Source: Lysinibacillus fusiformis (GTDB lineage: Bacteria; Bacillota; Bacilli; Bacillales_A; Planococcaceae). Taken from it: 64,000 nucleotides of DNA. Location of the stretch: positions 1,550,001-1,614,000 of the forward strand of contig NZ_CP070490.1 in assembly GCF_016925635.1 (NCBI RefSeq), given 5' to 3'. Both the position numbers and the translations under genes were made by a program. The notes beneath the pieces are model-generated. The model was not told the origin of the DNA, did no database searches, and worked only from the letters and a program-made list of their open reading frames with translations. Below are positions 6,388 through 22,919 of this stretch, piece by piece. Position 1 is the first letter of the stretch, and each line of letters starts with the position of its first letter.

Positions 6388-6406
6388 GATGCTGTTCACC
6401 TTCCTC

Positions 6407-6423: not shown

Positions 6424-6439
6424 ATATTTTTGAAAACAA

Positions 6440-6461: not shown

Positions 6462-6468
6462 AAAAATA

Positions 6469-6675: not shown

Positions 6676-6896
6676 AAAAATCCCTCTCTTTTGAAATATT
6701 TTTATAAAATGTAAAAGGGTATTAATAATTTTTTTATATTTCCTTTTAACTTTCGAATTGTGATTTTAACTTATATTGGCTTCATCACTTTTAATGCAGT
6801 TTATCATTATCAAACAAGCTTTCTTTAAACGATAAATTTGTAATTACATCATCACCGTAAATTATCAACCTCCTCTAAACACACATTCATGTTACC
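6676..6896 (-). other. Long leader between copZ and its operator
   Basis: This AT-rich stretch has no normal gene. An AGGAGG site at 6869-6874 (minus) is followed by a 24-codon open frame starting at ATA/ATT and ending with TAA at 6791. Neither start is canonical. It may be a leader peptide, a relic or chance. Confidence 0.3.
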
Positions 6897-6913
6897 ATAC
6901 CCCAGTTAGGTAT
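6897..6913 (-). promoter_or_regulatory. CsoR-like operator upstream of copZ
   Basis: ATACCCCAGTTAGGTAT fits the ATACC-N7-GGTAT frame of the other two boxes. It lies about 220 bp before copZ on the minus strand. Confidence 0.6.
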
Positions 6914-7031
6914 GTAAAGTGGTGTTTTAATTTACTATATGCGTCACTAATTATGCAGTATATGTTAAATATCACGTTTATTTAACATTCAAACACTGTG
7001 ACTTAATTAAATTTTTTAGCAGTCCATCAAA

Positions 7032-7059
7032 AAACTCTGCTCCTAAATAAGCAGAGTTT
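7032..7059 (-). terminator. Terminator of the Csp-like gene
   Basis: A perfect 10-bp stem (AAACTCTGCT / AGCAGAGTTT) with an 8-nt loop. A T6 run follows on the minus strand. Confidence 0.85.
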
Positions 7060-7127
7060 AAAACATTTTCGCGTTAGAAGAATTACTTTTATTTATCATT
7101 GATTCTTCATTTATAAAATCAAATCTT

Positions 7128-7457
7128 CTACACAGCCATTTTTTTACATACTTCAGCGCATCGGTAACATGTTTCTGCACATTCTTGGCAATGTTTATGA
7201 TGTTCATGTTTTTTACAAACATCACCACATGCCTGACAAATCTCAGCACATAATTGACAAATTTGCTTTACGAATGGACTACCAGACTGCATCGATTTAG
7301 CAGAAAATGCACAAATATCGGCACATTCTCTAAGGGTACGAATGCACTCCGCTAACATTTTAACATCATCTTCTTCTAGACATTCATGATAACATTTATT
7401 ACATTCCTTCATACACTCTAGACAAGCTTTAATACATTCTTCATAGCTCATTTTCAA
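7128..7457 (-). CDS. Csp-like four-helix-bundle copper-storage protein (DUF326)
   Basis: This small protein of 109 residues carries about 20 Cys, most in C-X3-C or C-X2-C pairs along predicted helices (for example C-L-E-C-M-K-E-C-N-K-C and C-Q-E-C-A-E-T-C-Y-R-C). This is the pattern of the Csp3/YhjQ family, whose four-helix bundles hold many Cu(I) ions in the cytosol. There is no signal peptide, so it should act inside the cell as a copper sponge beside CopZ and CopA. The TTG start at 7457 has AGGAGG nine bases upstream; the ATG two codons further in is spaced less well. A half-site like the CsoR boxes (ATACCCC) lies around 7515 upstream, but no full palindrome is seen. Confidence 0.85.
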   Translation of the reverse strand: MKMSYEECIKACLECMKECNKCYHECLEEDDVKMLAECIRTLRECADICAFSAKSMQSGSPFVKQICQLCAEICQACGDVCKKHEHHKHCQECAETCYRCAEVCKKMAV

Positions 7458-7665
7458 TTTTAAATACCTCCTGTTAATTTAGTCTGTCTTATTATAACCA
7501 CTCCTATTTACTATATACCCCATTCAATCATAACTAATCTTCCCTATTGATATTAAACGGGTCTTCGGAATATATAGTGGAATTACTTTCTTAATAGTTT
7601 AAAAACAACTGGTGTTTAAATCGGATTTTCTGGTGGGATGTTAGGATAATCAATAGTATTATATA

Positions 7666-7695
7666 AAAGTATCAATCACATACGAGTGATACTTT
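7666..7695. repeat. Inverted repeat upstream of merR
   Basis: AAAGTATCA (7666-7674) and TGATACTTT (7687-7695) form a 9-bp perfect inverted repeat with a 12-nt spacer, in the 317-bp gap between the Csp-like gene and merR. On the minus strand it is followed by TTTTATATAA. Its function is unknown. Confidence 0.45.
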
Positions 7696-7723
7696 GGGAA
7701 AAAAATAAAATAGTCCAATTTAC

Positions 7724-7755
7724 TTGACCGTGTACTATGGTACACGGTTTATAAT
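7724..7755 (+). promoter_or_regulatory. MerR-type mer promoter and operator
   Basis: A -35 element TTGACC and a -10 element TATAAT are separated by a 20-bp spacer, the over-long spacing typical of MerR-activated promoters. Within it lies the perfect palindrome ACCGTGTAC-N4-GTACACGGT (7727-7748), the classic MerR site. It drives merR and merA together. Confidence 0.92.
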
Positions 7756-7774
7756 ATTCATGGGGTGAAATAAG

Positions 7775-8167
7775 ATGATTTATCGCATTAGTGAGTTTGC
7801 AGATAAATGTGGAGTTAATAAAGAAACGATCAGATATTACGAGCGAAAAAATTTATTACAAGAACCTCACCGAACGGAAGCTGGTTATCGGATATATTCA
7901 TATGATGACGTTAAGCGTGTTGGGTTTATTAAACGAATACAGGAACTTGGTTTTTCTTTAAGCGAGATTTATAAATTACTTGGTGTTGTAGATAAAGATG
8001 AAGTTCGTTGTCAAGATATGTTCGAATTTGTTTCTAAAAAACAAAAGGAAGTGCAAAAACAAATAGAGGATTTAAAACGAATTGAAACTATGTTAGACGA
8101 CTTAAAACAACGATGTCCAGATGAAAAGCAATTACATTCGTGTCCAATAATAGAAACATTAACATGA
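7775..8167 (+). CDS. merR: Mercury-responsive regulator MerR
   Basis: The 130-residue protein has the MerR winged helix at the N terminus (I-R-Y-Y-E-R...G-Y-R-I-Y) and a coiled-coil dimer helix after it. Three Cys at positions 79, 114 and 123 match the spacing (35 and 9) of the Hg(II) ligands Cys82/117/126 of Tn501 MerR. It should repress, and with Hg(II) activate, the adjacent promoter at 7724-7755 by untwisting the long spacer. A GGGGTG site precedes ATG 7775. It is followed after 28 bp by merA on the same strand. Confidence 0.95.
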
Positions 8168-8195
8168 GAGATTAATTAACGAAAGGAGCTTTTTT

Positions 8196-9836
8196 ATGAA
8201 TAAATTTAAGGTAAACATTTCAGGAATGACTTGTACGGGTTGTGAAAAACACGTAGAATCAGCACTTGAAAAGATAGGTGCTAAAAATATTGAGTCTAGT
8301 TATCGTCGTGGTGAAGCAGTATTTGAACTGCCCGATGATATTGAGGTTGAAAGTGCAATAAAGGCGATTGATGAAGCAAATTACCAAGCCGGAGAAATTG
8401 AAGAAGTATCATCACTAGAAAACGTGGCGTTAATTAATGAAGACAATTATGACCTTCTTATTATTGGTTCTGGTGCTGCTGCCTTTTCTTCGGCAATTAA
8501 AGCTATAGAATACGGTGCAAAAGTTGGAATGATTGAGCGTGGAACGGTTGGGGGAACCTGTGTGAATATTGGCTGTGTTCCGTCAAAAACTCTTCTTAGG
8601 GCAGGGGAAATCAATCATTTATCAAAAGACAATCCGTTTATAGGTTTACAAACATCCGCTGGAGAAGTGGATTTAGCTAGTTTAATCACGCAAAAGGATA
8701 AATTGGTGAGCGAACTTCGGAATCAAAAATATATGGATTTAATTGATGAATATAATTTTGATTTAATTAAAGGTGAAGCAAAATTCGTTGATGCTAGTAC
8801 GGTTGAGGTCAATGGGGCAAAGTTATCTGCAAAACGCTTTTTAATTGCAACAGGTGCATCGCCTTCGTTGCCCCAAATTTCAGGACTTGAAAAAATGGAC
8901 TATTTAACTAGTACAACACTTCTTGAGTTAAAGAAAATACCAAAACGATTAACTGTAATTGGTTCAGGATACATTGGAATGGAGCTTGGACAACTATTTC
9001 ATCATTTAGGTTCAGAAATAACGCTTATGCAAAGAAGTGAGCGACTTTTAAAGGAGTATGATCCTGAGATTTCAGAGTCAGTTGAAAAAGCGTTAATTGA
9101 ACAGGGTATAAACCTTGTCAAAGGGGCAACTTTTGAGCGTGTTGAACAAAGTGGAGAGATAAAAAGGGTTTACGTAACAGTAAATGGCAGTAGAGAAGTC
9201 ATTGAATCAGATCAGTTACTTGTTGCCACTGGAAGAAAACCAAATACGGATTCTTTAAATTTAAGTGCAGCAGGTGTTGAAACTGGAAAAAATAATGAAA
9301 TCCTGATCAATGATTTTGGTCAAACAAGTAATGAAAAGATTTATGCAGCAGGAGATGTGACTTTAGGACCACAATTTGTATATGTAGCAGCCTATGAAGG
9401 TGGAATTATTACTGATAATGCTATTGGTGGATTAAACAAAAAAATAGATTTATCGGTAGTTCCTGCTGTTACGTTTACGAATCCGACGGTTGCAACGGTT
9501 GGTTTAACAGAAGAACAAGCAAAAGAGAAAGGGTATGATGTGAAGACATCTGTATTACCTTTAGATGCTGTTCCAAGAGCAATTGTAAACCGTGAAACAA
9601 CCGGTGTATTTAAACTAGTAGCAGATGCAGAAACACTAAAAGTATTAGGGGTTCATATTGTATCTGAGAATGCAGGAGATGTCATCTATGCAGCATCATT
9701 AGCTGTTAAATTTGGCTTAACGATAGAAGATTTAACAGAAACCCTAGCACCATATTTAACAATGGCTGAAGGGCTAAAATTAGCTGCACTTACGTTCGAT
9801 AAAGATATTTCGAAATTATCTTGTTGTGCAGGCTAA
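8196..9836 (+). CDS. merA: Mercuric reductase MerA
   Basis: The 546-residue flavoprotein reduces Hg(II) to volatile Hg(0) with NADPH in the cytosol. It has one N-terminal HMA domain with Cys13/16 (G-M-T-C-T-G-C) and an FAD-binding G-S-G-A-A-A. The redox disulfide is Cys122/127 in T-C-V-N-I-G-C-V-P. It has a second dinucleotide fold (G-S-G-Y-I-G-M-E) and the C-terminal Cys543-Cys544 pair that hands Hg(II) to the active site of the partner subunit. All key residues are present. A strong AAAGGAG precedes the start. No merT, merP, merE or merB homologue lies between merR and merA or after merA, so this is a minimal module ending at an insertion sequence. Confidence 0.97.
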
Positions 9837-9886
9837 GGGAACTTTTTTACAACTCCCTATTCAAGTGAACCAGCTAATGCTTTAAG

Positions 9887-11340
9887 GGATTTTCTAAGTG
9901 CATTTGTGGTCACAAAAATAATTTAACACTGATGATTTCGACATCAAATCTATAATTGATACCTTAACACCGCAGAGTAATAAAGGATGAATAATATGTC
10001 AGACTTATTATCCCTACCAGACATTAAAACAATAGAACCGCCACAAGAAAATGAAACCGATATGATGTTTAAAGTTGAAGCAGTCGGACCACCTGAACGT
10101 TGTCCTGAATGTGGTTTTGACAAGTTGTACAAACACAGTTCAAGAAATCAACTAATTATGGATTTGCCCATTCGTTTAAAGCGAGTGGGCTTACAATTGA
10201 ACCGTAGACGATACAAGTGTCGTGAATGCGGATCTACCTTCTGGGAACGCCTAATATCTGTAGATGAAAAGCGTAGTATGACCAAAAGGCTTTTAAAGTC
10301 CATTCAAGAGCAATCCATGTCTAAGACCTTTGTAGAAGTCGCAGAAAGCGTTGGTGTTGACGAGAAAACCATTAGGAACGTTTTTAAGGACTATGTGGCA
10401 CTCAAAGAACGTGAATACCAGTTTGAAACTCCTAAGTGGCTTGGGATAGACGAGATACATATTATCCGTAGACCTCGGCTTGTATTGACTAATATTGAAC
10501 GCAGGACTATTTATGACATCAAGCCTAACCGTAACAAGGAAACAGTCATCCAACGTCTTTCAGAAATCAGTGACAGGACTTACATTGAGTACGTCACAAT
10601 GGATATGTGGAAGCCCTACAAAGACGCAGTGAACACTATCCTTCCACACGCTAAAGTTGTCGTAGATAAGTTTCATGTAGTTAGAATGGCTAATCAAGCC
10701 TTAGATAACGTCAGAAAGTCTTTGAAAGCCCATATGAGCCAAAAAGAAAGACGTACCCTTATGCGTGAAAGGTTTATCCTTCTAAAGCGTAAACACGATC
10801 TAAATGAACGTGAATCATTCCTCTTAGATACTTGGTTAGGTAATCTTCCTGCTTTAAAAGAAGCCTATGAACTCAAAGAAGAGTTTTACTGGATATGGGA
10901 TACTCCTGATCCAGATGAAGGTCATCTTCGTTATAGTCAATGGAGACACCGTTGTATGTCCAGCAACTCTAAAGACGCATATAAAGACCTCGTGAGAGCC
11001 GTAGACAACTGGCATGTCGAAATATTCAACTACTTTGATAAAAGGCTCACTAATGCTTATACGGAGTCAATTAACAGCATTATTAGGCAGGTAGAGCGAA
11101 TGGGTAGAGGTTACTCGTTTGATGCCTTACGAGCCAAAATCCTTTTCAATGAGAAGCTCCATAAAAAGCGTAAGCCACGATTTAATTCAAGTGCTTTCAA
11201 TAAAGCTATGTTATACGATACTTTCAATTGGTATGAAGTGAATGATCACGACATTACAGACAACTTTGGTGTCGATTTTTCCACACTTATTAAGAATTTG
11301 GAGAAGGGTGATTTATAAGCCCTTTTCCACCATAAAATCC
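9887..11340 (+). mobile_element. ISL3-family insertion sequence (ends approximate)
   Basis: The element carries a single transposase gene. The proposed termini share GGATTTT at 9887-9893 and its complement at 11334-11340, with weaker similarity inward (T..GTG.A). This gives a length of about 1.45 kb, normal for ISL3. No 8-bp target duplication is visible at these ends, so either the ends are misplaced or the insertion has been rearranged. Confidence 0.55.
9987..11318 (+). CDS. ISL3-family transposase
   Basis: The 443-residue protein has the ISL3 layout. An N-terminal zinc-finger-like domain has C-P-E-C and, 40 residues later, C-R-E-C-G-S-T-F-W. A helix-turn-helix follows. The DDE catalytic core has Asp in W-L-G-I-D-E-I-H, Asp in V-T-M-D-M-W-K-P-Y, and Glu in A-Y-T-E-S-I-N-S. 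The closing R-M-G-R-G-Y-S-F-D motif is typical of ISL3. It is full length, without frameshift, so the IS may be active. It lies 150 bp downstream of merA on the same strand and could receive read-through from the mer promoter. Confidence 0.93.
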   Translation: MNNMSDLLSLPDIKTIEPPQENETDMMFKVEAVGPPERCPECGFDKLYKHSSRNQLIMDLPIRLKRVGLQLNRRRYKCRECGSTFWERLISVDEKRSMTKRLLKSIQEQSMSKTFVEVAESVGVDEKTIRNVFKDYVALKEREYQFETPKWLGIDEIHIIRRPRLVLTNIERRTIYDIKPNRNKETVIQRLSEISDRTYIEYVTMDMWKPYKDAVNTILPHAKVVVDKFHVVRMANQALDNVRKSLKAHMSQKERRTLMRERFILLKRKHDLNERESFLLDTWLGNLPALKEAYELKEEFYWIWDTPDPDEGHLRYSQWRHRCMSSNSKDAYKDLVRAVDNWHVEIFNYFDKRLTNAYTESINSIIRQVERMGRGYSFDALRAKILFNEKLHKKRKPRFNSSAFNKAMLYDTFNWYEVNDHDITDNFGVDFSTLIKNLEKGDL

Positions 11341-11350
11341 GAATACCCTA

Positions 11351-11704
11351 TTAAACTAAGAGAAGCTTCATGAGACCTATCATCATACTAATTATGATTC
11401 CCATTCCTATGATTGAATAACTAATTACTTTTAAGTCATCTTTTTTTTGCAATCGACAGTATTTTTTATAACTAACTTCTCCATTTGCGAACATAAGACC
11501 AAATTGATCAGGTTTAATTGAATAAAATACACCATTCTCGTCTTCTAAAATTAGTTTTGTTATAAGGTTCTCCCCGTTCGATTTTTGATTATGAGTATTG
11601 CTTCTCGAGCCTTCAATCCTCACCACTTTGTATATGGAGTTCCCCAAAATCTTTTCTGTTATATGAAAAGCTTGATCTTCTATAAAGTTGTTATTTATAC
11701 ACAC
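11351..11704 (-). CDS. Hypothetical protein with C-terminal membrane segment
   Basis: I do not recognise this 117-residue protein. The first 85 residues are polar, with no signal peptide. The last 25 form one hydrophobic helix (I-S-Y-S-I-I-G-M-G-I-I-I-S-M-M-I-G-L), so it is probably tail-anchored. It starts at GTG 11704 behind a GAGGGGGGAT site. It lies between the right edge of the insertion sequence and the terminator of the CopB-like gene. Confidence 0.5.
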   Translation of the reverse strand: MCINNNFIEDQAFHITEKILGNSIYKVVRIEGSRSNTHNQKSNGENLITKLILEDENGVFYSIKPDQFGLMFANGEVSYKKYCRLQKKDDLKVISYSIIGMGIIISMMIGLMKLLLV

Positions 11705-11809
11705 TTATATCCCCCCTCTGTTCACTAAGCTTCTGATATACTATATGTAAAATTTAATATATAGTTTTAACTAATCAGGAAATTGGAATCTTTTTTTTAC
11801 AATATAATA

Positions 11810-11840
11810 AAAATTCGTCAAATTATATTTGACGAATTTT
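11810..11840. terminator. Terminator of the CopB-like gene
   Basis: A perfect 13-bp stem (AAAATTCGTCAAA / TTTGACGAATTTT) with a 5-nt loop and T-rich flanks on both strands. It follows the minus-strand CopB-like stop codon. Confidence 0.85.
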
Positions 11841-11855
11841 TTGCTTCATCTTTAC

Positions 11856-13958
11856 TTATTCGATTTTGAGCAATTGTGCATTTATTGCACATATAATCGT
11901 ACTTAAGGACATGACAGCAGCTCCAATTGCAGGTGTAATAACAATACCTACACTATATAAAACGCCTGCAGCTAGTGGAATTGCAAGAATGTTATAACCA
12001 GCTGCCCACCCTAAATTTTGGACCATTTTTTTATGACTAGCTTTCGATAGCTTTAATGTATTCAGAATGTCCTCTGGATTGCTGTTTACCAGTACTACAT
12101 CTGCAGTTTCAATGGCCACATCTGTGCCTGCACCGATCGCAATACCTAAATCTGATTCAGCCAGTGCAGGCGCATCATTAACACCGTCACCAACCATTGC
12201 AACTTTCGAATTTTCTTCTTTTAGTCCTTTCACCTTATTAGCTTTTTCATGGGGTAATACTTCAGCAATAACTTTCGTCATGCCTAGTTTTTCACCAACA
12301 TATTTTGCTACACGCACGTTATCACCTGTCATCATAACGGTTTCAATACCTAAATCACTCAATTCTTTTATAACCTTATAAGAGGAATCCCTTATTATGT
12401 CTGCTAAAGCAATCATGCCTAAAAATACATTATCCTTTAATATAAAAATAACGGTTTTACCTTGTTGTGCAAGTTTTTCGTAAGTACTTTCATCGAAGCT
12501 AATATTTTTTTCTTTTAAAACATTTGGACTAACAATTGCAATTTCAGACCCGTTAACATTAGCCACTAACCCTTTACCTGTTAAATTTTTAAAACCTTTT
12601 ACTTCAGATACTTTTATATTTTGCTTCTTACCCTCTTTTACAATTCCCTTTGCTATTGGATGTTCAGATTGAATTTCTACAGAGTAAGCAAGCTTTAATA
12701 ATTCTTTTTCGCTAACCCCTGTAACTGGATGAATATCCGTTATACCAAAATTACCTTCAGTTAAGGTACCAGTTTTATCAAACACAATTCTATTGATTTT
12801 AAATGCGTTTTCAAATGAAGTACGATTCCTAATTAATAAACCCTTCTTAGCAGCAATAGATGTAGAACGTGATGTTACTAAAGGAGTAGCTAGACCTAAA
12901 GCATGAGGACAAGCAATTATTAAAACTGTCACCATTCTTTCTAATGCAAAATCAAAGTCATCTGTTGACCACCAATAAACCAGTGTGATAATACCTGCAA
13001 CAATAGCGACATAGAATAACCATTTAGCGGCTGTATCAGCAAATCCTTGAGCTTTTGATTTAGTTTTTTCTGCATCGCTTACTAATTGGATTACTTGTGC
13101 AAGATAAGTGTCACTGCCTGTTTTACTAACATTTATTTTTAGTACACCCTCTCCATTAATTGAACCCCCAATGGCCTCCATACCTACCTTTTTTTCAATA
13201 GGAATTGATTCCCCAGTTAACATCGATTCATCAACTGTAGAGTGTCCTTCAAAAACTATTCCATCAATGGGAATTTTCTCGCCTGGTTTTACTAGTATTT
13301 GATCACCTGGTTTTAAATCTTCAACAGATACTTCAATAAGGTTGCCTGATGCATCTAACTTATGAGCTTCTTTAGGCATTAATTTAATTAACTCTTCTAA
13401 TGCTTTTGAAGCACCCATTATTGATCTCATTTCGATCCAATGTCCAAGAAGCATAATAACAATTAAGGTTGCTAATTCAAAAAAGAAGTCACTTCCTTCA
13501 ATGAAAAATGCTGTTAGTGAACTATAGACATAAGCTGTTACGATAGCAAGAGTAATTAATAGCATCATCCCAGGAGTTCTATTTTTCAATTCACTCCATG
13601 CTCCAAGTAAAAATGGTTTTCCTCCATAGAAAAAGACTATTGTTGAAAGTAAGAATAGTAATAATGTGTCACCAGCAAAATTTACTTTATATCCAAGAAG
13701 CATCTGAATCATCATGGATAAATATGATATTGGAATCGTTAATACTAAAGATACCCAAAACCTTTTCTTAAAATCAGAAATCGAATGACCATGGTGTTTG
13801 TTGTTACCCTCGCTTTGATTATGTTGATGATGATTGTGTTCATTATTTTTCTTATTGTTAGGGCTGTAATTTTCATGAACATCTTGCATATGATTTGTTA
13901 TTGGTTCATGCGAAACATTATGATTGTGGATGTGGTCTCTTTTTTCTTTTCTCTCCAT
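11856..13958 (-). CDS. copB: CopB-type heavy-metal P-type ATPase (P1B-3, CPH motif)
   Basis: The 700-residue ATPase differs from the CopA here in two ways. Its ion site is C-P-H (I-A-C-P-H-A-L-G-L), and its N terminus is a His-rich tail of about 75 residues (H-N-H-N..., H-N-H-H-Q-H-N, K-H-H-G-H) instead of HMA domains. These mark the CopB group, which exports Cu(II), Cu(I) or Ag(I). The catalytic D-K-T-G-T, T-G-E-S, S-E-H-P and G-D-G-V-N-D motifs are intact. The ATG at 13958 has GAGGAG nine bases upstream; the TTG one codon earlier is less likely. No CsoR-like box was found upstream, so its control may differ from that of copA. Confidence 0.92.
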   Translation of the reverse strand: MERKEKRDHIHNHNVSHEPITNHMQDVHENYSPNNKKNNEHNHHQHNQSEGNNKHHGHSISDFKKRFWVSLVLTIPISYLSMMIQMLLGYKVNFAGDTLLLFLLSTIVFFYGGKPFLLGAWSELKNRTPGMMLLITLAIVTAYVYSSLTAFFIEGSDFFFELATLIVIMLLGHWIEMRSIMGASKALEELIKLMPKEAHKLDASGNLIEVSVEDLKPGDQILVKPGEKIPIDGIVFEGHSTVDESMLTGESIPIEKKVGMEAIGGSINGEGVLKINVSKTGSDTYLAQVIQLVSDAEKTKSKAQGFADTAAKWLFYVAIVAGIITLVYWWSTDDFDFALERMVTVLIIACPHALGLATPLVTSRSTSIAAKKGLLIRNRTSFENAFKINRIVFDKTGTLTEGNFGITDIHPVTGVSEKELLKLAYSVEIQSEHPIAKGIVKEGKKQNIKVSEVKGFKNLTGKGLVANVNGSEIAIVSPNVLKEKNISFDESTYEKLAQQGKTVIFILKDNVFLGMIALADIIRDSSYKVIKELSDLGIETVMMTGDNVRVAKYVGEKLGMTKVIAEVLPHEKANKVKGLKEENSKVAMVGDGVNDAPALAESDLGIAIGAGTDVAIETADVVLVNSNPEDILNTLKLSKASHKKMVQNLGWAAGYNILAIPLAAGVLYSVGIVITPAIGAAVMSLSTIICAINAQLLKIE

Positions 13959-14143
13959 CAAATATCACTCCTCTAAATATAAATCAGATGTGTACTATTT
14001 TTTTAGTGAATGTTCCCTCATTTTTCTTGAATTCATTTCTCCTAGGTTTCCTAGAAAAAATATTTCTTATTTAATCTTAATTTACCCCAAAGTTATGCAA
14101 AAATTATGAATTGTAATTTGAATAAAATTATTATTTAACAAAA

Positions 14144-14176
14144 AAAGAATGAGGATAAAAATGTACCTCATTCTTT
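14144..14176 (-). terminator. Terminator of the D,D-carboxypeptidase gene
   Basis: A perfect 11-bp stem (AAAGAATGAGG / CCTCATTCTTT) followed on the minus strand by TTTTTG. Confidence 0.85.
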
Positions 14177-14184
14177 GTCTTAAT

Positions 14185-15357
14185 TTATATTAATTTCTTC
14201 TTTCGAATAAACTTTAAATAGATGAATAGGACGAAAATAAACATTACGCTAAATTTTGTGTACACCGATGCATCCTGATTTAAATTCGAGTCCTCTGTGT
14301 CTTTATGAGTTACATTTTTATTTATTTTACTATTGGCATTTTCTAACTGAAAAGATGCGATAGTATCCTGATTTTGATTTAATAGCTCTAAATGACCCTT
14401 TCCAGAGATTCTTTGACTAACTGTTTCATGTTGTAAAACTATATAATCGAGTTTTTCTTTGGTCTTAAAGGACATTTCATCAATTTTATATATTTTTCCC
14501 ATCGGAATATTCCTAGACTCAAAATTCTCAAATGCATAATCAAGAAGTTCTATTGTATCGTTATAGGCCATGTCTTCTGTTTGCGCTTTAAGCGTTACGA
14601 CAATAACCGATATATCGTTTCTTGTTGCTGTTGTTATAAGAGTTATTCCTGATTCATCAACATATCCAGTCTTTCCACCCGTTATTCCTTCATAAGGTCG
14701 CTCTCTCATTAATTTATGATGACTATAAAGAGTAGTATCCCACGATTTGCCATCCCAATTAAGTTCCTTTAGACCAAAAATTTTACGAAACTCCTTATTT
14801 TGCATTGCGTATTTCGTAATTTTTGCTAAATCTTGTGCAGTAGTTTTATGATCTGGATCATATAGTCCATGGGGATTTACAAAGTTCGTATTTTGTATTC
14901 CAATATTCTCTAAATATTTATTTATACTAGTCGAAAACTGTTTTACAGACCCATCCAAATGCTCAGCAATAGCAATACCTGCATCATTACCAGAATTCAC
15001 AAGTAAGCCTTGAATAAGCTTTCTTAGATTAACCTTTTCTCCTTCTTCTAAAAAAACCCTAGTTCCTTCAACTTCTCTAGCATTTTTACTAATTGTGACA
15101 ATGTCTTCTAGGTTCCCTTTTTCAATTGCATATATTGCAGTTGCTATCTTTGTTAAGCTAGCAGGAGCCATCTTCTGATTTGGATTTTTTTCATATAAAA
15201 TTCGCCCCGTTTTTTCATCTATTAATATAGCAGCTTCACTGCTAATCAAAGGAGATTCGACCTTCATTGCGCCATGAACTCTATAAACAAAATTTGAACC
15301 TAGTATTAAGAAGATTACTACTAAAATCGCAACCTTTTTTATTAAATGTGTTTCCAT
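14185..15357 (-). CDS. D-alanyl-D-alanine carboxypeptidase (peptidase S11, DacA/PBP5-like)
   Basis: The 390-residue protein removes the terminal D-Ala of peptidoglycan stem pentapeptides outside the membrane. It has an N-terminal hydrophobic signal and the three penicillin-binding motifs: S67-L-T-K70, S122-G-N124 and K229-T-G231. After the catalytic domain there is a PBP5-like C-terminal domain, then a membrane helix near the C terminus with a basic K-K-K tail, so it is held at the membrane at both ends or after cleavage. It lies downstream of the redox/two-component cluster with a 165-bp gap. Two direct repeats TGGAGAA with an 11-bp period lie 50-68 bp upstream of the start; a related site precedes ccdA. 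Confidence 0.9.
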   Translation of the reverse strand: METHLIKKVAILVVIFLILGSNFVYRVHGAMKVESPLISSEAAILIDEKTGRILYEKNPNQKMAPASLTKIATAIYAIEKGNLEDIVTISKNAREVEGTRVFLEEGEKVNLRKLIQGLLVNSGNDAGIAIAEHLDGSVKQFSTSINKYLENIGIQNTNFVNPHGLYDPDHKTTAQDLAKITKYAMQNKEFRKIFGLKELNWDGKSWDTTLYSHHKLMRERPYEGITGGKTGYVDESGITLITTATRNDISVIVVTLKAQTEDMAYNDTIELLDYAFENFESRNIPMGKIYKIDEMSFKTKEKLDYIVLQHETVSQRISGKGHLELLNQNQDTIASFQLENANSKINKNVTHKDTEDSNLNQDASVYTKFSVMFIFVLFIYLKFIRKKKLI

Positions 15358-15404
15358 ATTATTATTCTCCTCATAGTAATCTACACATGTATCTTAGAAA
15401 AAAT

Positions 15405-15425
15405 ATGTGGAGAAAATATGGAGAA
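15405..15425 (-). promoter_or_regulatory. Candidate response-regulator site upstream of the carboxypeptidase gene
   Basis: TGGAGAA occurs at 15408 and again at 15419, an 11-bp period as used by OmpR-family regulators. The 16-bp block ATGTGGAGAAAATATG (15405-15420) recurs with one mismatch upstream of ccdA at 20652. Binding by the neighbouring response regulator is inference. Confidence 0.4.
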
Positions 15426-15522
15426 CAAGTTACGTAATCTAAACTTAACACTTGTAACAATAGTGATTTCTATTAATGTTTGAAAAGCAATGTACTTTTA
15501 TTTGTTTCTAAATTATTTATAT

Positions 15523-16257
15523 TTACATTCCCCAATAAGTAATTGTGTCAAAAATTCCAATAATAAAAAGAGTAACTCCGGCTATTTTTTGAATAAACCT
15601 ACCTACTTTAATACTTTTCTTCATTACTAATCCCTTAATATCAAAGTACCATATAAAAAATAAGATGATGACAAGAGGTATTGATGTTGCCAATCCAAAT
15701 ATTGCAGGTAACACTAATCCATATGAAGTCGACATAACGGTTGGCATTAGCCATACAAAATAGAGTACAAACATTGTTGGACAGAATGCAATTGCAAAAC
15801 TAGCTCCTAGAAAAAAGGAACCAATATAACCTTCTTTTAGTATAGTAGGAACGTTCTTTGAAATTCGATTTAATATTCTTAACTTTATTGTCCCCATTAA
15901 CACAAGTCCGGTAAGTATTAATAGAGGACCAATCAATTTTCGGAAAACCGGAAAGAAATTAATTATTTTGTTTTCAAATGTTTGTCCAAATGCCCACGCC
16001 AACAAACCAATTGCACTATATACTATGACTTTACCCATAATAAACGAAACGATCTCTCTCCAATTACTACCTAATTGGATAGTACGATTACCATATAACG
16101 TAATAGCGCTAATATTTCCAGTCAGTTGACATGGAGCAAATGCACCTATCAACCCAAGGAGGATAGATATAATGATTGGGGAATGCTCATATGAATTTAA
16201 GAATACAGAAACTGGTTCACTTATGGTTTGACTAATTTGAGACATCAAATTATACAT
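15523..16257 (-). CDS. CcdA/DsbD-like membrane thiol-redox protein
   Basis: This protein of about 244 residues has six or seven hydrophobic segments. It carries two membrane Cys in F-A-P-C-Q-L-T-G-N and A-F-C-P-T-M-F, the positions that form the electron-carrying pair in the CcdA/DsbD family. It is distinct in sequence from the second family member in the cluster (19887-20597). It should pass reducing power from cytosolic thioredoxin to extracytoplasmic partners. Its target is unknown; the TlpA-like protein or the beta-propeller lipoprotein are neighbours. The ATG at 16257 has GAAGGGTG upstream and fits better than a GTG three codons earlier. Confidence 0.7.
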   Translation of the reverse strand: MYNLMSQISQTISEPVSVFLNSYEHSPIIISILLGLIGAFAPCQLTGNISAITLYGNRTIQLGSNWREIVSFIMGKVIVYSAIGLLAWAFGQTFENKIINFFPVFRKLIGPLLILTGLVLMGTIKLRILNRISKNVPTILKEGYIGSFFLGASFAIAFCPTMFVLYFVWLMPTVMSTSYGLVLPAIFGLATSIPLVIILFFIWYFDIKGLVMKKSIKVGRFIQKIAGVTLFIIGIFDTITYWGM

Positions 16258-16278
16258 CTCAATCACCCTTCAATAACC

Positions 16279-17205
16279 TTATTTTATTTTTAATTCCCCT
16301 TCTGAAGCTAATTTATCCCACGATTCCCCTTCGTTCTTAGAAAGATAGAAGTTAAGATTATTTGTTACAAAAGTAATTTCTTCTCGATTAGTAGGATTAG
16401 AAGCGATATAAATAATTGGGTCTTGCATTATCTCGTTTGGGAGTTGTATATTTTTTTCTTCTTTACTATCCAATGAGAATGATCTAAGGGAAACAGAATT
16501 TGAGTCATAGTTTGTATAGTAACCCCCATTCTCATTTAAAGTTACGTATGTAACCATTTGAGTAGACTTAAGTAATTTAAAGTTAACTCCATAGTCATTC
16601 GAAACAAAGATTCCATCTTTACTACCAATTGCAACTATTTCTTTTTTGGAAGGGTGAGCTGATAAATTAGAAACAAACTCGGAATTAAAGCCATTCATAG
16701 CTGATTCAGTCCAAGACTTCCCTTCATCAATTGAATAATGCAATCCACCACTCATATTCTCTGTAGGTGTTTCATTAATGACATAGATTGTATTCGAATC
16801 ATAACCAGCTGCAAGATAATGAAAATCAATTTCGCCGTAAAAGGCTAATTGTTCTAGATTTGCTCCTTCATCTGTACTTTTTATAACTCCTAAAGGGTTT
16901 TTAAGGTTTGAGCCTTCCTCAGGATGTCCACTTGAATAGAAGCCATCTTTGACCGCCTGAAAGCCCATATAGTCATGTTTTTGGCTGTTCGCTTCTTCCC
17001 AACCCTTTACACCATATTTATACAATCCTCTATGTGTTGCAATTACAAAATCACTTTTACCATTTATATATCCCAAACCATGTATATGTTCAATTTTTGG
17101 GTTATCCACTTCTTCAAATGAATAACTATCTTTTTCTTTTGAATTACAAGCACTTAAAACTAAAACAATAACTAATAGACCTAACCAAATTTTGTAATTT
17201 TTCAT
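16279..17205 (-). CDS. Beta-propeller (BNR/sialidase-like) lipoprotein
   Basis: The 308-residue protein has a lipoprotein signal with lipobox L-S-A-C at residue 20. The mature part contains several Asp-box-like repeats typical of sialidase/VPS10 propellers (S-T-D-E-G-A-N, S-I-D-E-G-K-S-W, S-N-D-Y-G-V-N-F, S-K-N-E-G-E-S-W). Such proteins are surface exposed, and some are misnamed glycosyl hydrolases. No catalytic residues can be assigned. An early H-I-H-G-L-G motif could bind metal. It lies between the response regulator and the CcdA/DsbD-like gene with gaps of only 12 and 21 bases, so it is surely co-transcribed with them. It may be a sensor or assembly protein of the redox system. Confidence 0.72.
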   Translation of the reverse strand: MKNYKIWLGLLVIVLVLSACNSKEKDSYSFEEVDNPKIEHIHGLGYINGKSDFVIATHRGLYKYGVKGWEEANSQKHDYMGFQAVKDGFYSSGHPEEGSNLKNPLGVIKSTDEGANLEQLAFYGEIDFHYLAAGYDSNTIYVINETPTENMSGGLHYSIDEGKSWTESAMNGFNSEFVSNLSAHPSKKEIVAIGSKDGIFVSNDYGVNFKLLKSTQMVTYVTLNENGGYYTNYDSNSVSLRSFSLDSKEEKNIQLPNEIMQDPIIYIASNPTNREEITFVTNNLNFYLSKNEGESWDKLASEGELKIK

Positions 17206-17217
17206 ACTTTTCTCCTT

Positions 17218-17895
17218 TTAACTCCATTTATACCCTATTCCCCAAACCGTTTTAAGGAACTCATCGGTAGGAAAGTCAGATTTACTTAATTTTTCTCTTA
17301 GATTTCTTATATGTGAATCAACAGTCCGCGTATCTGTATCTGTTTCATATTCCCATGCAGCATGCAGTAATTCCTCTCTTGTAAATGTCTTAGAAGGTCG
17401 AGATATTAATGCTTTTATAATTAAAAATTCTTTTAAAGTAAGTTGCACACTTGAATTTTGGTAGTGTAGAGAATATGTTTCTTTATCTAAAACAAAATCT
17501 TTAAAAGTGATATTTTCATTATCCTTTTCAAATCCGACAATTCTACGCAAAACAGCATTGATTCTTGCTATTAACTCTCTTTCATCGAATGGCTTGGATA
17601 TATAGTCATCTGCACCTAATAAAAGTCCCTTAGCTAAATCAGATTTATCAGCTCTTGCAGTTAGCATTATAATGGGTACTTTTGAAAATTCACGAATAGA
17701 TTCACAAACATCCCATCCATCCATTTCAGGCATCATAACATCTAATAAAACGAGATCGATATTTTCTTTCTTAATTCTCTCTATTGCCTTTATTCCGCTC
17801 TTTTCTTTAATACAGGTATATCCATGTGGAATTAAAAATAATTCGACTAAATCGAGCATTCTTTCTTCATCATCCACAATCAAAATTGTCTGCAT
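17218..17895 (-). CDS. OmpR/PhoB-family response regulator
   Basis: The 225-residue protein has a receiver domain with phospho-acceptor Asp52 (L-L-D-V-M-M-P), acidic D8-D9 and Lys101 (Y-I-S-K-P-F). A winged-helix DNA-binding domain follows (R-T-V-D-S-H-I-R-N-L-R-E-K-L, G-I-G-Y-K-W). It lies 16 bp after the histidine kinase gene, its evident partner. It may bind the repeated ATGTGGAGAA blocks upstream of ccdA and the carboxypeptidase gene, but that is inference. The ligand sensed is unknown; metal or thiol stress is suggested by the neighbours. Confidence 0.92.
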   Translation of the reverse strand: MQTILIVDDEERMLDLVELFLIPHGYTCIKEKSGIKAIERIKKENIDLVLLDVMMPEMDGWDVCESIREFSKVPIIMLTARADKSDLAKGLLLGADDYISKPFDERELIARINAVLRRIVGFEKDNENITFKDFVLDKETYSLHYQNSSVQLTLKEFLIIKALISRPSKTFTREELLHAAWEYETDTDTRTVDSHIRNLREKLSKSDFPTDEFLKTVWGIGYKWS

Positions 17896-17911
17896 ATTTA
17901 ACCTCCATGTG

Positions 17912-19285
17912 TTATATGATCACCGTAAATGTACTTCCTTCTCCAAGTTTACTTTTGACTTCAATGGTACCATTGTGTGCTTCTACTAATTCCTTCACAA
18001 CAGCAAGTCCAATTCCTGAACCACCATATGCACGAGAACGTGATTTCTCAACACGATATAGCTTCTCAAAAATGAAGTCAATTTCTTCTTGTGGAATGCC
18101 AATACCTGTATCAATAACCTCAATTCTTGTTTTCCCTTCATTTTTACAAGCCTTTAATGTTACCTCTGTATTTTCCTTTGAATATTTCAAAGCATTATCC
18201 AATAGGTTTATGACAATTTGCTCTAAACGTAATGGGTCAGCATATATTTGAAAATCTTCAGTGCAAACAAAGTTCAACTTAATATTCTTGAGATCATATG
18301 AAGGAGCAACAAGTTTACATATTGCTTCGAAAAAATATCGAGCAGAGAAAGATTCTTTCATGACAGTAAATGTGTTTTCGTCCATTCTAGCCAAGTCTAA
18401 TAAATTTTTTACCAATTCCTTCATTCTATTGGACTCTTCAACAATAATTTCAAGATACTGTTCTCTTTGTTTCTTACTTAGACTCTCTCTCATCGCTACT
18501 TTTGAATATCCAATTAAATATGTCAACGGTGTACTTAATTCATGAGCCACTGACGCCAGAAATTCATTCCGGTCTGTTTTTAAACGTTCTAAATCATTGG
18601 CTAATTTCTGAATTGAACTTGCTAACTCACCAAGCTCGTTTTTACTTTTAATTGCAAGCTTTACATTAAACTCACCTTTGCTTAATTTCTCTGTTGCCTC
18701 TTTCATCCGTATTAAAGGTCTTGTTATAACTTTTGACAGAACCGCGTAAACAATAAAAAGTACAATAAAACTTGTAGCACCTGCCATACCAAAATGTTCA
18801 GTTAATTCATGAACCATCTTATTAAGAGAACCAGTACTTTGTAGCATTAAAACGTATCCAGATTGATTTGTATTTGAGATATAAGGATGCACACTCATAA
18901 TATAAGGGGATTCTTTCCAGTTAGAAGTCAATAATTCATCTGTTTCTACGTCTACGTTCTTTATTAAAGAAACTATTTGTCCACTTAAAGATTCACTAAT
19001 ATCTGAACTACCAATGATATTTCCTTTATTATCGGTAATGATCACCGCACGATCTTTACTTTTTTCCATCAAAACGATATGTTTTATTGTAGTTTCAGAA
19101 AAATTTTCAATTAAAACATCTCTATGATTAGCACCATTCGCCAATAATGTATAATATTCTTCTTCAACTCTCGAATTAATTATATTTCGATGAAGATAAA
19201 ACATAAGAAATAAATCCATTATTAGCACTACAATAAAAAAACACGATGCTAATTTTGTAGAGATTTTGTTCACTAATTTTTTCAC
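17912..19285 (-). CDS. Membrane sensor histidine kinase
   Basis: The 457-residue kinase has a first membrane helix (residues 12-31), an extracytoplasmic domain of about 130 residues, a second helix (170-185) and a HAMP linker. It then has a HisKA dimer domain with His248 (S-V-A-H-E-L-S-T-P-L) and an ATPase domain with N-L-L-D-N-A-L-K-Y, D-T-G-I-G-I-P and G-S-G-I-G-L-A-V-V. The outer domain is PAS/Cache-like in length, contains D-N-K-G-N-I-I-G-S-S, and has no Cys. It starts 28 bases after the TlpA-like stop codon, inside the same operon. It should phosphorylate the regulator encoded next. Confidence 0.92.
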   Translation of the reverse strand: MKKLVNKISTKLASCFFIVVLIMDLFLMFYLHRNIINSRVEEEYYTLLANGANHRDVLIENFSETTIKHIVLMEKSKDRAVIITDNKGNIIGSSDISESLSGQIVSLIKNVDVETDELLTSNWKESPYIMSVHPYISNTNQSGYVLMLQSTGSLNKMVHELTEHFGMAGATSFIVLFIVYAVLSKVITRPLIRMKEATEKLSKGEFNVKLAIKSKNELGELASSIQKLANDLERLKTDRNEFLASVAHELSTPLTYLIGYSKVAMRESLSKKQREQYLEIIVEESNRMKELVKNLLDLARMDENTFTVMKESFSARYFFEAICKLVAPSYDLKNIKLNFVCTEDFQIYADPLRLEQIVINLLDNALKYSKENTEVTLKACKNEGKTRIEVIDTGIGIPQEEIDFIFEKLYRVEKSRSRAYGGSGIGLAVVKELVEAHNGTIEVKSKLGEGSTFTVII

Positions 19286-19313
19286 CTCTCTTATTAGTCT
19301 AAAAAATTATTAC

Positions 19314-19847
19314 TTAGTCTGGTAAAATTTGTTCCATGTAACTCTTTATATCCTGTTCTTTCATTTCTCCAGTGATTATTTTTTCTATTTTACCCTCTGA
19401 ATTAATAAGAATAGTCGTTGGTAATGGATTTATATTATATGCTTCCATTACACTTTTGTTTTTGTCAATTAATACCGGAAAAGTTAAACCTTTTCGGTCA
19501 ATATAATTTTGAACCACGAAGTCGGATTCTGCTATATTTATAGCTAATACCTGTATACCTTTTTCTTTATATTCCTTATAATATCTATCTATAATTGGGA
19601 ATTCCCTTTCACAGGGTTTGCACCAAGTCCCCCAAAAGTTTAAAAAGACACCTTGTCCTTTGTATTCCTCCAAATTATGTTTATCACCATACATATCAAC
19701 TAGAGTAAAATTTGGAGCATTATCCCCTATTTGTAATACTTCATTTTTTTCTTTAGTTAAAGTTGTATATACTGTAAATAATATTGCCCCAAATAATACA
19801 ATTAATATAATTGAACGCATAAGAAATCGTCTCTTTTTTTTATCCAT
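19314..19847 (-). CDS. TlpA/ResA-like membrane-anchored thiol-disulfide oxidoreductase
   Basis: The 177-residue protein has one N-terminal membrane helix and an extracytoplasmic thioredoxin fold with active site W-C76-K-P-C79. The fold contains the cis-proline segment I-N-P-L-P-T. Such proteins reduce disulfides outside the membrane, for example in cytochrome c maturation or copper-site assembly. The ccdA gene directly upstream, 39 bases away, should supply its electrons. A copper-site or metal-resistance role is suggested by the island but not shown by sequence. Confidence 0.88.
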   Translation of the reverse strand: MDKKKRRFLMRSIILIVLFGAILFTVYTTLTKEKNEVLQIGDNAPNFTLVDMYGDKHNLEEYKGQGVFLNFWGTWCKPCEREFPIIDRYYKEYKEKGIQVLAINIAESDFVVQNYIDRKGLTFPVLIDKNKSVMEAYNINPLPTTILINSEGKIEKIITGEMKEQDIKSYMEQILPD

Positions 19848-19886
19848 AATTAAGTTTGGTTCCTTCCCCTCTTATATGATATAAAA

Positions 19887-20597
19887 CTAAAAGCCAGTAA
19901 ATCCTCCAAAAATAGGTGTTAAAAACGCAATAATTTTAGTCATCATATCAAAGTACAATAAAACCCCCATCAGAATCATTATTGCACCACCTATTTTCAT
20001 AAACAGTCCATTTTTTCTTTGAAGAAACTTCATTTTTCCAATAAATAAGGACATTATTAGGAAAGGTATAGAGAAACCTAGCACATAAAATAACATGTAC
20101 AACATTCCTTGCCCGGGGTTAGACACTCCTAAAGCTATTACTCCGGCAAGAATTGGTCCAGTACAAGGTGTCCATCCAGCTGCAAAACCCATACCAATAA
20201 GTACTGAGCCAAAATATCCTTTGGGCCTTTTTTTAAAACTAATCTTTTTTTCCGATTGTAAAATATCGAATTTAAAGAAACCTAGAATAACTAATCCAAA
20301 AAAGACCATGAAAATTGCTCCAAATTGCCTTAGTAACTCTTTATACTGAATAAAAATCTTTCCGATAAAAGAAGTTGAGAAACCTAATGCCATAAAAATA
20401 ATAGAAAAACCAAGTAAAAAAAGCAGGGTATGTATTAAAGACTTTCGTCTTAAGATCCCTTTCTCTTCTTTTAGTTCATTAAAGGATATTCCTGTTATAT
20501 AAGATAGAAAAGCAGGATACAATGGTAATGAACAAGGTGATACAAATGATAATAATCCAGCCCCAAATGCAAGTATTAAATTTAATTGTTCTAACAA
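19887..20597 (-). CDS. ccdA: Cytochrome c biogenesis protein CcdA
   Basis: The 236-residue membrane protein has six hydrophobic segments and the paired Cys of the family in V-S-P-C-S-L-P-L-Y-P and W-T-P-C-T-G-P. It passes reducing equivalents from thioredoxin across the membrane. It is the first gene of the minus-strand cluster ccdA - tlpA-like - kinase - regulator - propeller lipoprotein - ccdA/dsbD-like. The start is a TTG at 20597 with a weak GAGAG site. Upstream lie a TTGATA-TG-TATCAA palindrome (20674-20687) and the repeated ATGTGGAGAA block. The core chromosome probably has its own ccdA for respiration, so this copy would be a cargo paralogue. Confidence 0.88.
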   Translation of the reverse strand: MLEQLNLILAFGAGLLSFVSPCSLPLYPAFLSYITGISFNELKEEKGILRRKSLIHTLLFLLGFSIIFMALGFSTSFIGKIFIQYKELLRQFGAIFMVFFGLVILGFFKFDILQSEKKISFKKRPKGYFGSVLIGMGFAAGWTPCTGPILAGVIALGVSNPGQGMLYMLFYVLGFSIPFLIMSLFIGKMKFLQRKNGLFMKIGGAIMILMGVLLYFDMMTKIIAFLTPIFGGFTGF

Positions 20598-20651
20598 ATA
20601 CTCTCACGCAACCTTTCTACAGAACATTTAAAAATAAAGTATAGACTATAA

Positions 20652-20667
20652 ATGTGGAGAATATATG
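20652..20667 (-). promoter_or_regulatory. Candidate response-regulator site upstream of ccdA
   Basis: ATGTGGAGAATATATG differs by one base from the block at 15405-15420 upstream of the carboxypeptidase gene and lies at a similar distance (about 55 bp) before the start codon. No clear second half-repeat is seen here. Confidence 0.4.
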
Positions 20668-20808
20668 CATATGTTGATACATATCAAAATTAAGAAGTTT
20701 ATTTTTGATACCTTTCTACAACTCATTAATTAATAGCAATTTTTTTTTAAAAAAAGTTTTAATTCCTGCTCTAAGGATTATAATTCAACGGTAATAATGA
20801 CAAAACAA

Positions 20809-20840
20809 AACCCTGGCACAGTAGACAATGTACCAAGGTT
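20809..20840 (-). terminator. Inner of two terminator-like hairpins facing glmS
   Basis: AACCCTGGCACA and TGTACCAAGGTT pair with two mismatches. On the minus strand the stem is followed by TTGTTTTG. It is a diverged copy of the hairpin at 20913-20947; both are followed by an ATATAGTTAGAA stretch. Confidence 0.6.
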
Positions 20841-20912
20841 ATTTTAATGTACCTACTTTATATATATATAGTTAGAAAAATGAAAGGTTTGAAAGCCATT
20901 TTGAAAAAACAA

Positions 20913-20947
20913 AAACCCTGATACAGCATCATACTGTATCAAGGTTT
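20913..20947 (-). terminator. Outer terminator-like hairpin for glmS transcripts
   Basis: AAACC-C-TGATACAG and CTGTATCA-A-GGTTT form a 13-bp stem with one mismatch, followed on the minus strand by TTTTTGTTTTTTC. It lies about 170 bp after the glmS stop, inside the Tn7-like right end, and should stop glmS transcription from entering the cargo. Confidence 0.75.
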
Positions 20948-21003
20948 ATCTTATTTATATACAATAATATAGTTAGAATCACTCATAGAAATTGTTTGAA
21001 TAT

Positions 21004-21092
21004 CCAGTATACAACTTTTTTGTCCAGTATAAGACTTTATTGTAAAGTATACAACTATTTTGTCTAGTATAGAACTTTATTGTAACTGAACA
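21004..21092 (-). repeat. Tn7-like right end: four tandem TnsB-type sites plus TGT terminus
   Basis: Read on the minus strand from 21092 inward, the end begins TGTTCAGTT and continues with four 20-bp units starting ACAATAAAG, ACAAAATAG, ACAATAAAG and ACAAAAAAG, each ending TATACT plus two bases. As I recall the Tn7 right end, it begins TGT, reaches ACAATAAAG after nine bases, and has sites reading ACAATAAAGTCTTAAACT and ACAGAATAGTTGTAAACT; the match in sequence, order and spacing is close. The terminus is 24 bp past the glmS stop. The likely 5-bp target duplication is 21093-21097 (ACAAT). Confidence 0.85.
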
Positions 21093-21116
21093 ACAATAAT
21101 TCTTCATATTCTATTC

Positions 21117-21155
21117 TTACTCAACAGTCACCGATTTAGCTAGGTTACGTGGTTT
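21117..21155 (-). other. attTn7-type target site in the 3' end of glmS
   Basis: TnsD recognises the last codons of glmS. Here they encode the conserved [11 protein letters not shown] ending, and the transposon end sits 24 bp beyond. The site is intact, as expected for Tn7-type insertion, which leaves glmS unharmed. Confidence 0.7.
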
Positions 21156-22919
21156 ATCCACGTCACAGCGGCGATGTAGTGCAGCATAGTAGCTAATTAA
21201 TTGTAGTGGTACTACAGAAACAAGTGGTGTTAGTAACTCGTTTACCTGTGGAATGACTAAACGATCACCATCTTCATCAATGCCAGCCATCGCGATAATA
21301 CATGGATAGGCACCACGAGCTGCTACTTCTTTGACATTACCACGGATATTTAACCCTACTGATGCTTGTGTAACAAGCGCAAACACTGGTGTACCTTCTT
21401 CGATTAAGGCAATTGTTCCGTGCTTCAGTTCTCCACCAGCAAAGCCCTCTGCTTGGATGTAAGAGATTTCTTTCAGTTTTAAGGCACCTTCAAGGCTAAC
21501 ATAGAAGTCCATATTACGGCCAATGAAGAATGCATTGCGTGCGATTTTTAAGTAATCTTCCGCAATGTCTTCTAACACATCTTTTGAATCGATAATTGTT
21601 TGGATGCCATTAGCGGCAATTGCAAGCTCTTGTTTTAAATCAAATTCTAAGCCTTTGCCATTTGCCTTTGCCGTTACATAGGCTGCTAATGCAAGTACTG
21701 CTACTTGTGCAACATAGGCTTTTGTAGAAGCTACTGCAATCTCTGGACCTGCGTGTAATAACAATGTATGATCCGCTTCACGTGATAGCGTAGAGCCAGG
21801 TACATTTGTAATCGTTAATGTTGGATAGCCAAGCTCTTTAATTTTTACAAGTACTTGACGACTATCTGCTGTTTCACCTGATTGTGTAATGAAGATAAAT
21901 AATGGTCTTTCTGAAAGTAATGGCATGTTGTAGCCGAATTCACTAGAAATATGAACTTCTACTGGGATACCCGCCATTTTTTCGAAATATTGTTTACCGA
22001 TGAGACCGGCATGATAGCTTGTGCCCGCCGCAATAATATATAAACGATCTGCTGCTCGTAATGCTTCTAAAATCTCCGCATCGATTGTTAAATCGCCATT
22101 GTCCCCTTCATATGCCTGAATGATTTTACGAATAACTGTAGGCTGTTCATCCATTTCTTTTAACATATAGTGAGGATATGTCCCTTTTTCAATATCACTC
22201 ATATCAAGCTCCGCCGTATAAGGCGCACGCTCTACTACAGTACCATCTAATTTTGTAATTTCCACACTTGCTTTGTGTACGATAACTACTTCTTTATCGT
22301 GAAGCTCTACGTATTGATCTGTTACCTGTAGCATCGCCATTGCATCTGACGCAACAACATTGAAACCTTCTCCAATCCCTACTAGAAGTGGTGATTTGTT
22401 TTTTGCTACAAAGATTGTATCTGCCGCTTCTGCATCTAATAGTGCCAGTGCATAAGAGCCATGTAATAGTGATAGCGTTTTACGGAAAGCGTCTGCTGTG
22501 CTTAGACCATCTTTCACAAATAACTCTACTAATTGCACAATAACCTCTGTATCTGTATCAGATTTCATTGGAATGCCTTTTAAATAGGTTTTTTGCAATA
22601 AATGATAGTTTTCAATAACCCCATTATGCACAAGTGTAAAGCGTCCTGATGCACTTTGATGTGGGTGGGCATTTAAACGGTTTGGCACACCATGTGTTGC
22701 CCATCGTGTATGACCGATACCAATTTTCGCTGCAATGTCTTCGTCTACTGCCTCACGTAAATCTGCAATACGCCCTTTTTCTTTGAAAACCGTTACGCCT
22801 TCCTCATTACGCACTGCAATACCCGCTGAGTCATAACCACGGTATTCAAGCTTTTCTAAACCTTTTAATAAAATTTCCTTTGCATCTGATTCACCAATAT
22901 ATCCTACAATTCCACACAT
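21117..22919 (-). CDS. glmS: Glutamine-fructose-6-phosphate aminotransferase (isomerizing)
   Basis: The 600-residue enzyme makes glucosamine-6-phosphate from fructose-6-phosphate and glutamine, the first step to UDP-GlcNAc and peptidoglycan. It has the N-terminal nucleophile M-C-G-I-V-G-Y-I-G (Cys1 after Met removal) and the glutaminase motif [11 protein letters not shown]. Two SIS sugar-isomerase domains follow (S-G-E-T-A-D-S, S-T-K-A-Y-V). The C terminus [11 protein letters not shown] is fully conserved. The ATG is preceded by GGAGG. Expression is controlled by the ribozyme at 23115-23280. glmM lies upstream on the same strand, separated by a PfpI-family gene. Confidence 0.99.

Follow-up and report, generated by a model that had tools for sequence, protein, structure and literature searches.

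Tn7 inserts about 25 bp past glmS, duplicates 5 bp of target DNA and lies with its right end nearest to glmS, and these properties are shared by the element described here.

Tn7-like transposons with more than one target selector have been described. Faure et al. 2023 (PMC10293859) describe dual TniQ-TnsD Tn7-like elements and count loci with two tnsD genes, and our element resembles these in having two TnsD-family selectors. The genes described there are in tandem, however, whereas in our element some 20 kb separate the two, the second being placed beside the left end. As that survey collected genes up to 50 kb from tnsC (PMC10293859), elements like ours may be included in its counts. The same article describes Tn6022 as encoding TnsE near its left end, which likewise places a second target selector near the left end and far from the core genes, but the selector is TnsE there and a TnsD-family protein here (PMC10293859). 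The description of Bacillus cereus ATCC 10987 in PMC2359905 includes an island, BCEGI-1, located after glmS and containing two Tn7-type gene sets. It has in common with our locus the Firmicute host, the glmS site and two Tn7-type gene sets in one island, but both are full tnsABCD sets there whereas here one set is accompanied by a lone second TnsD. In the open-licence literature we found no description of the present element, and none naming Lysinibacillus with Tn7 and glmS.

Ends and boundaries of the element

The window is the whole stretch of DNA analysed, 64,000 nucleotides (G000:C1:1550001-1614000) of the Lysinibacillus fusiformis genome G000, a single contig of 5.0 Mb; subtracting 1550000 from a coordinate on G000:C1 gives the window numbering. 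Other genomes and loci are referred to by G and L numbers. The initial annotation had placed the right end of a Tn7-like transposon at glmS, having noted four alternating tandem 20-bp repeats, a TGT nine bases outside them and a distance of 24 bp to the glmS stop codon. Re-reading of the sequence confirmed each of these observations, and the features of the two ends are the following (window numbering unless a contig is given).

1..21092, no strand: in-window part of the 54,010-bp transposon (GC 33% versus 41% right of 21100)
21006..21085, minus strand: right end, four contiguous 20-bp TnsB-type sites (from the repeats, shuffles and alignment with the Tn7 right end)
21086..21092, minus strand: outer part of the right end, terminal TGT at 21092-21090 (from flank reading and the Tn7 alignment)
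21093..21097, no strand: target-site duplication ACAAT, right copy, 5 bp (equal to the left copy at G000:C1:1517078-1517082)
21117..22919, minus strand: glmS, the attachment gene (30 of 30 loci read give the C-terminus NLAKSVTVE)
G000:C1:1517083-1517231, inverted relative to the right end: left end (from the site scan and flank reading)

The four direct repeats are contiguous, with starts at 21006, 21026, 21046 and 21066, and their minus-strand sequences, taken from the outermost inwards, are ACAATAAAG, ACAAAATAG, ACAATAAAG and ACAAAAAAG. The position of the TGT, nine bases ahead of the first repeat on the same strand, makes 21092 the last base of the element, and exactly 24 nt (21093-21116) separate it from the glmS stop codon (21117-21119). 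An 18-bp site pattern with at most one mismatch was found four times in the window, always inside the array, while 100 dinucleotide shuffles of the window gave a mean of 0.01 sites and none of them (0/100) reached four. We then used the four sites to scan 204 kb, made up of the window and the 140 kb to its left. The seven top scores (23.7-27.7) corresponded to the four right-end sites and to three inverted left-end sites; the next real score was 16.1 and the maximum over five mononucleotide shuffles was 20.2. In a plasmid search the array also aligned with the Tn7 right end of the E. coli plasmid NZ_CP074702.1, where tnsA comes next, with 81.3% identity over 79 query bases (10-88). This alignment, which had been proposed as a check, recovered the same four sites at near-equal spacing (starts at 10, 30, 50 and 70 here versus 10, 30, 51 and 71 in Tn7), and three of the four 9-mers are identical.

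The inverted left end consists of three spaced strong sites at G000:C1:1517090-1517231, 32.9 kb to the left of base 1 of the window. Together with the presence of ACAAT at both flanks, these inverted sites delimit an element of 54,010 bp (G000:C1:1517083-1571092) with an overall GC content of 33%. An inverted left-end array, a second ACAAT copy and tnsA/B/C/D had all been suggested as things to look for left of base 1, and every one of them is present. A point against is that the left terminus is TGA, not TGT, in G000, G002 and G011. The spacing of the left-end sites, 66 and 56-57 bp, was found again in G166 and L180.

Nine elements could be lined up at both ends (on separate contigs for G002, G011 and G014), and eight of these have matching 5-bp duplications, all different, as read by eye from the flanks. 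The ninth, in the G001 stack, has both end arrays but mismatched flanks, and for G133 and G018 the right end alone was lined up. The duplications, given in the left-flank reading, are:

G000: ACAAT
G002: AACAA
G011: CTTAC
L180: CACAT
G166: GCTAT
G159: TAAGC
G014: CATAG
G030: ACACA

Matching duplications in eight of nine elements are strong evidence for a precise mobile unit. A left-end search across the 32 genomes of the genus gave some match in 17 of them and full copies nowhere beyond G000, G002 and G011.

Transposition genes and cargo

Four core genes are located in the middle of the element, 25-32 kb from its right end.

G000:C1:1539139-1540980, minus strand: tnsD1
G000:C1:1541000-1542628, minus strand: tnsC
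G000:C1:1542625-1544796, minus strand: tnsB
G000:C1:1544756-1545625, minus strand: tnsA

Their products match the Tn7 proteins with E values of 8.4e-111 (TnsB), 1.5e-48 (TnsA), 3.5e-91 (TnsC) and 8.5e-22 (TnsD1), and TnsA, TnsB and TnsC align to the solved Tn7 proteins across most of their length. The TnsB DDE triad, the TnsA E/D/K set and the TnsC Walker motifs, at what we take to be their residue positions, are present in these alignments. The element is like Tn7 in its four right-end sites with an alternating core, its nine-base TGT offset and its tnsABCD gene set. It differs from Tn7 in its size of 54 kb with metal cargo on either side of tnsABCD, in carrying an additional TnsD at the left end and no TnsE that we could find, and in the position of tnsABCD, which adjoins the right end in Tn7 but not here.

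The annotated cargo comprises the following features.

3967..6414, minus strand: CopA-like copper-type P-type ATPase
7775..9836, plus strand: merR and merA, mercury resistance
9987..11318, plus strand: ISL3-family transposase within the cargo
11856..20597, minus strand: second P-type ATPase, D-Ala carboxypeptidase-type, DsbD-type membrane and BNR/sortilin-like proteins, response regulator and kinase, and thioredoxin- and CcdA-like proteins (the last two named by eye)
G000:C1:1521369-1525588, minus strand: ars operon

The cargo also includes a serine resolvase, a heavy-metal P-type ATPase accompanied by an ArsR-type regulator, and multicopper oxidase and cupredoxin genes. The earlier proposal that the copper/mercury island is transposon cargo holds, as the island is bounded by both ends and by ACAAT with tnsABCD inside; the arsenic genes belong to the cargo as well. 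We also observed an inverted 120-bp repeat (73%) at G000:C1:1538927-1539046 and 1569883-1570002, in which a CcdA-like gene fragment adjoining tnsD1 mirrors the ccdA-like gene located towards the right end.

A search of PLSDB gave 169 records with a match to the second TnsD (TniQ2, see below) and 455 with a match to TnsC. Two near records, CP031730.1 and CP065518.1, both labelled as Stenotrophomonas plasmids, have a TnsC 93.7% identical to ours, and the other 453 TnsC records are below 60%. CP031730.1 (L180, L181), labelled as a Stenotrophomonas rhizophila plasmid, carries glmS, the phosphoglucosamine mutase gene, sigW and sigB, and for this reason we read it as a Lysinibacillus-like chromosome; the two records are probably a mislabelled or contaminant chromosome. 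No plasmid copy of the lineage was therefore retained from PLSDB, both near records looking chromosomal.

The glmS site across the genus

A glmS match was found in all 32 genomes of the genus (32/32), and 30 downstream regions were read. In the window, a glmS ribozyme-riboswitch (Rfam RF00234) lies upstream of the gene at 23120-23291. A four-site array of the same type as ours follows glmS in 4 of the 30 regions (G000, G002, G011 and G018) and a single weaker site in five more (G006, G009, G017, G028 and G031). Sorted by eye according to the type of end, the 30 regions comprise 4 of the same type, 5 of family B, 6 of family C, 2 of family D and 13 others that are unsorted, partial or empty. 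The family C end (TGTGAGTTATAACTAATACTGTCA...), a different type, follows glmS in six genomes (L071, L079, L086, L090, L092 and L098).

The DNA just outside the left end of our element (1516526-1517066) is 98% identical to a stretch of G021 that starts within about 100 bp of glmS, and in G021 four other 20-bp repeats, those of family D, lie between glmS and that stretch. One family D repeat remains in the outside flank of G000 (1517040-1517077) and in that of G011. In G002 and L180 the outside flank carries a shortened family B right end of about two repeats, and a family B end is found in G014 too. The G000 element is thus flanked by glmS on one side and by another transposon's right end on the other, and these neighbouring ends outside the left end place members of the lineage between glmS and other transposons. 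We take the transposons lying beyond the elements of the lineage to be older; their right ends have shrunk from four repeats, as though a displaced end underwent decay or recombination.

Three further sequences can be mentioned here. G001:C1:5041034-5050117 (L106) is an element of about 9 kb with both end arrays of the same type and a TnsD1 fragment, situated inside a glmS stack about 8.7 kb from glmS. A stretch of about 175 bp (L007:4531-4705) matches several genomes of the genus at 90-94%, and nothing was named on L007 by Rfam at gathering thresholds. The Peribacillus plasmid pB carries an array resembling a Tn7-type right end (L216:20001-20057); its gene table, an incomplete one, lists no tns gene up to 20 kb away.

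From sequence comparison, the repeats beside glmS are almost certainly the right end of a complete 54,010-bp Tn7-like cut-and-paste transposon. We regard it as very improbable that they are instead a relic right end and that the metal genes form an unrelated island without a transposon boundary. Relic ends do exist in the genus, as G018 (L115, G018:C50) has a four-site right end after glmS and its genome yielded neither a TnsD nor a left-end match, and an ISL3 transposase does lie within our cargo. Against this, the inverted left end and ACAAT bound the island and tnsABCD lies inside it, and near-identical elements with other duplications are present in G002 and G011. The initial annotation had listed repeats kept in strains without the cargo as an observation speaking against a transposon; G018 does carry the repeats without the transposition machinery, while the other three array genomes (G000, G002 and G011) carry a matching TnsD. 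We read the G018 right end as a relic or a non-autonomous element, and not as evidence against the transposon. By analogy with Tn7, TnsB would bind both ends of the complete transposon, TnsA and TnsB would excise it and TnsC would link the transpososome to TnsD1. TnsD1 would read the 3' end of glmS, so that the element would insert about 24 bp beyond the stop codon, with its right end on the glmS side, and leave glmS itself intact.

TniQ2, a second TnsD, and the distribution of TnsE

The second TnsD-type gene lies next to the left end.

G000:C1:1517289-1519175, minus strand: tniQ2

TniQ2 is a full-length TnsD of 628 aa, and some 60 bp separate its gene from the innermost left-end site. The protein shares 30% identity with TnsD1 across almost the full length and, like TnsD1, contains TniQ and TnsD domains. 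It is present at 100% identity in L. boronitolerans JCM 21713 and, across residues 1-356, at 98% in L. macroides DSM 54, and has relatives in three other genera (G166, G159 and G133), in G014 and in L180. In a tree of 33 rows, from which the G159 pieces and the near-identical genes of G002 and G011 were omitted, the five TniQ2 rows form one clade (100/100) apart from the other 28. None of the 14 rows with TniQ2 as best match adjoins tnsC, several of these rows being copies of one gene. Between G000 and L180 the identity is 45% for TniQ2, 93.7% for TnsC and 87% for the available piece of TnsD1, and relative to G133 and G166 it is 60-62% for TnsD1 and 33-34% for TniQ2. TniQ2 thus diverges far faster than the core genes.

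The position beside the left end recurs to varying degrees. In G166, some 210 bp separate the end of TniQ2 from the innermost left-end site, with the left-end spacing of 66/56 seen in G000; in G159 an interrupted TniQ2 lies about 200 bp from a weak site; in L180 one ORF separates TniQ2 from the left end; in G014 the gene is in two pieces about 4 kb from weak sites on another contig; and G133 has it between tnsA and the right end, not at the left end. All placed TniQ2 elements are at glmS, on a single contig in G000, L180, G133, G159 and G166 and with ends on two contigs in G002, G011 and G014. Among glmS elements with one TnsD, the gene directly follows tnsC in L108, L110 and L113 and is separated from it by a gap of 1.4-2.1 kb in L109 and G016.

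In the seven genomes with TniQ2 that were searched, TnsE (Pfam PF18623) gave no match in G000, G002, G011, G133, G159 or G166 (0/6), a result that a very divergent TnsE could escape. In G014, TnsE is found solely beside the TnsD of its other element, of family B, and in the relative G030, which has one TnsD and no TniQ2, TnsE adjoins that TnsD. Among 261 genomes, the same set for the family-wide and order-wide searches, TnsE is present in 18 and TnsD-type genes in 52. Pairs were defined as two TnsD-type genes within 65 kb on one strand and set by hand at E 1e-20. Fragments that stem from one broken gene, as in G025 and G030, did not count as a pair; G244 (two contigs) was entered as single, as was G137 despite a second weak TnsD-like ORF (L158). 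TnsE occurs in 2 of the 20 genomes with paired TnsD-type genes versus 15 of the 32 others (p = 0.007, uncorrected for kinship and therefore overstating the independence of these related genomes). The two TnsE-positive paired genomes, G014 and G016, each have two elements in tandem.

Judging from these comparisons, we lean towards the reading that TniQ2 is an alternative selector which would feed the same TnsC another DNA target and replace TnsE. Points against it are the glmS location of all placed copies, the lack of any plasmid copy in PLSDB, the three broken copies and the position beside the right end in G133. It is unlikely, though worth serious consideration, that TniQ2 is a leftover TnsD of another transposon or a duplicate without a targeting role. 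Its low identity relative to TnsC between G000 and L180, and its state in three copies (interrupted in G011 and G159, split in G014), are what such a leftover might display. However, the clade recurs in related elements of four genera, open full-length frames are found in G000/G002, L180, G133 and G166, with the TniQ and TnsD domains kept in the three that were scanned, and in G011 the core genes tnsB and tnsD1 are interrupted as well, which indicates that this copy is decaying as a whole.

The location of every placed TniQ2 element at glmS would also fit a TniQ2 that targets glmS as a backup, or that is itself the glmS selector with TnsD1 as the alternative. We consider this distinctly unlikely, since TnsD1 is the operon gene and the better conserved of the two, and the one-TnsD elements at glmS keep their TnsD after tnsC. 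A role of TniQ2 as adaptor for an RNA-guided (CRISPR) selector seems highly improbable: several CRISPR-associated transposons have two TniQ-family proteins according to the part of PMC11406308 that treats them, but TniQ2 has a full C-terminal TnsD domain, unlike the small TniQ of such systems as outlined in PMC10293859, and no Cas family match was obtained among the 37 distinct element proteins scanned. Returning to TniQ2 as an alternative selector, we tentatively propose, as a possibility rather than an expectation, that this Firmicute lineage swapped TnsE for an end-linked TniQ2 whose target changes fast. TnsD1 would have stayed fixed on glmS, and TniQ2, evolving several times faster, may direct the element to sites on mobile DNA.

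In all, this locus gives a base-by-base view of the boundaries and landing site of a metal-resistance island in a spore-former, and provides a natural Gram-positive relative of Tn7 with ends close to the prototype. In this genus glmS is a crowded dock at which different transposon families are stacked one behind another, and the paired selectors of the element pose a testable question, namely which DNA is recognised by the second TnsD.
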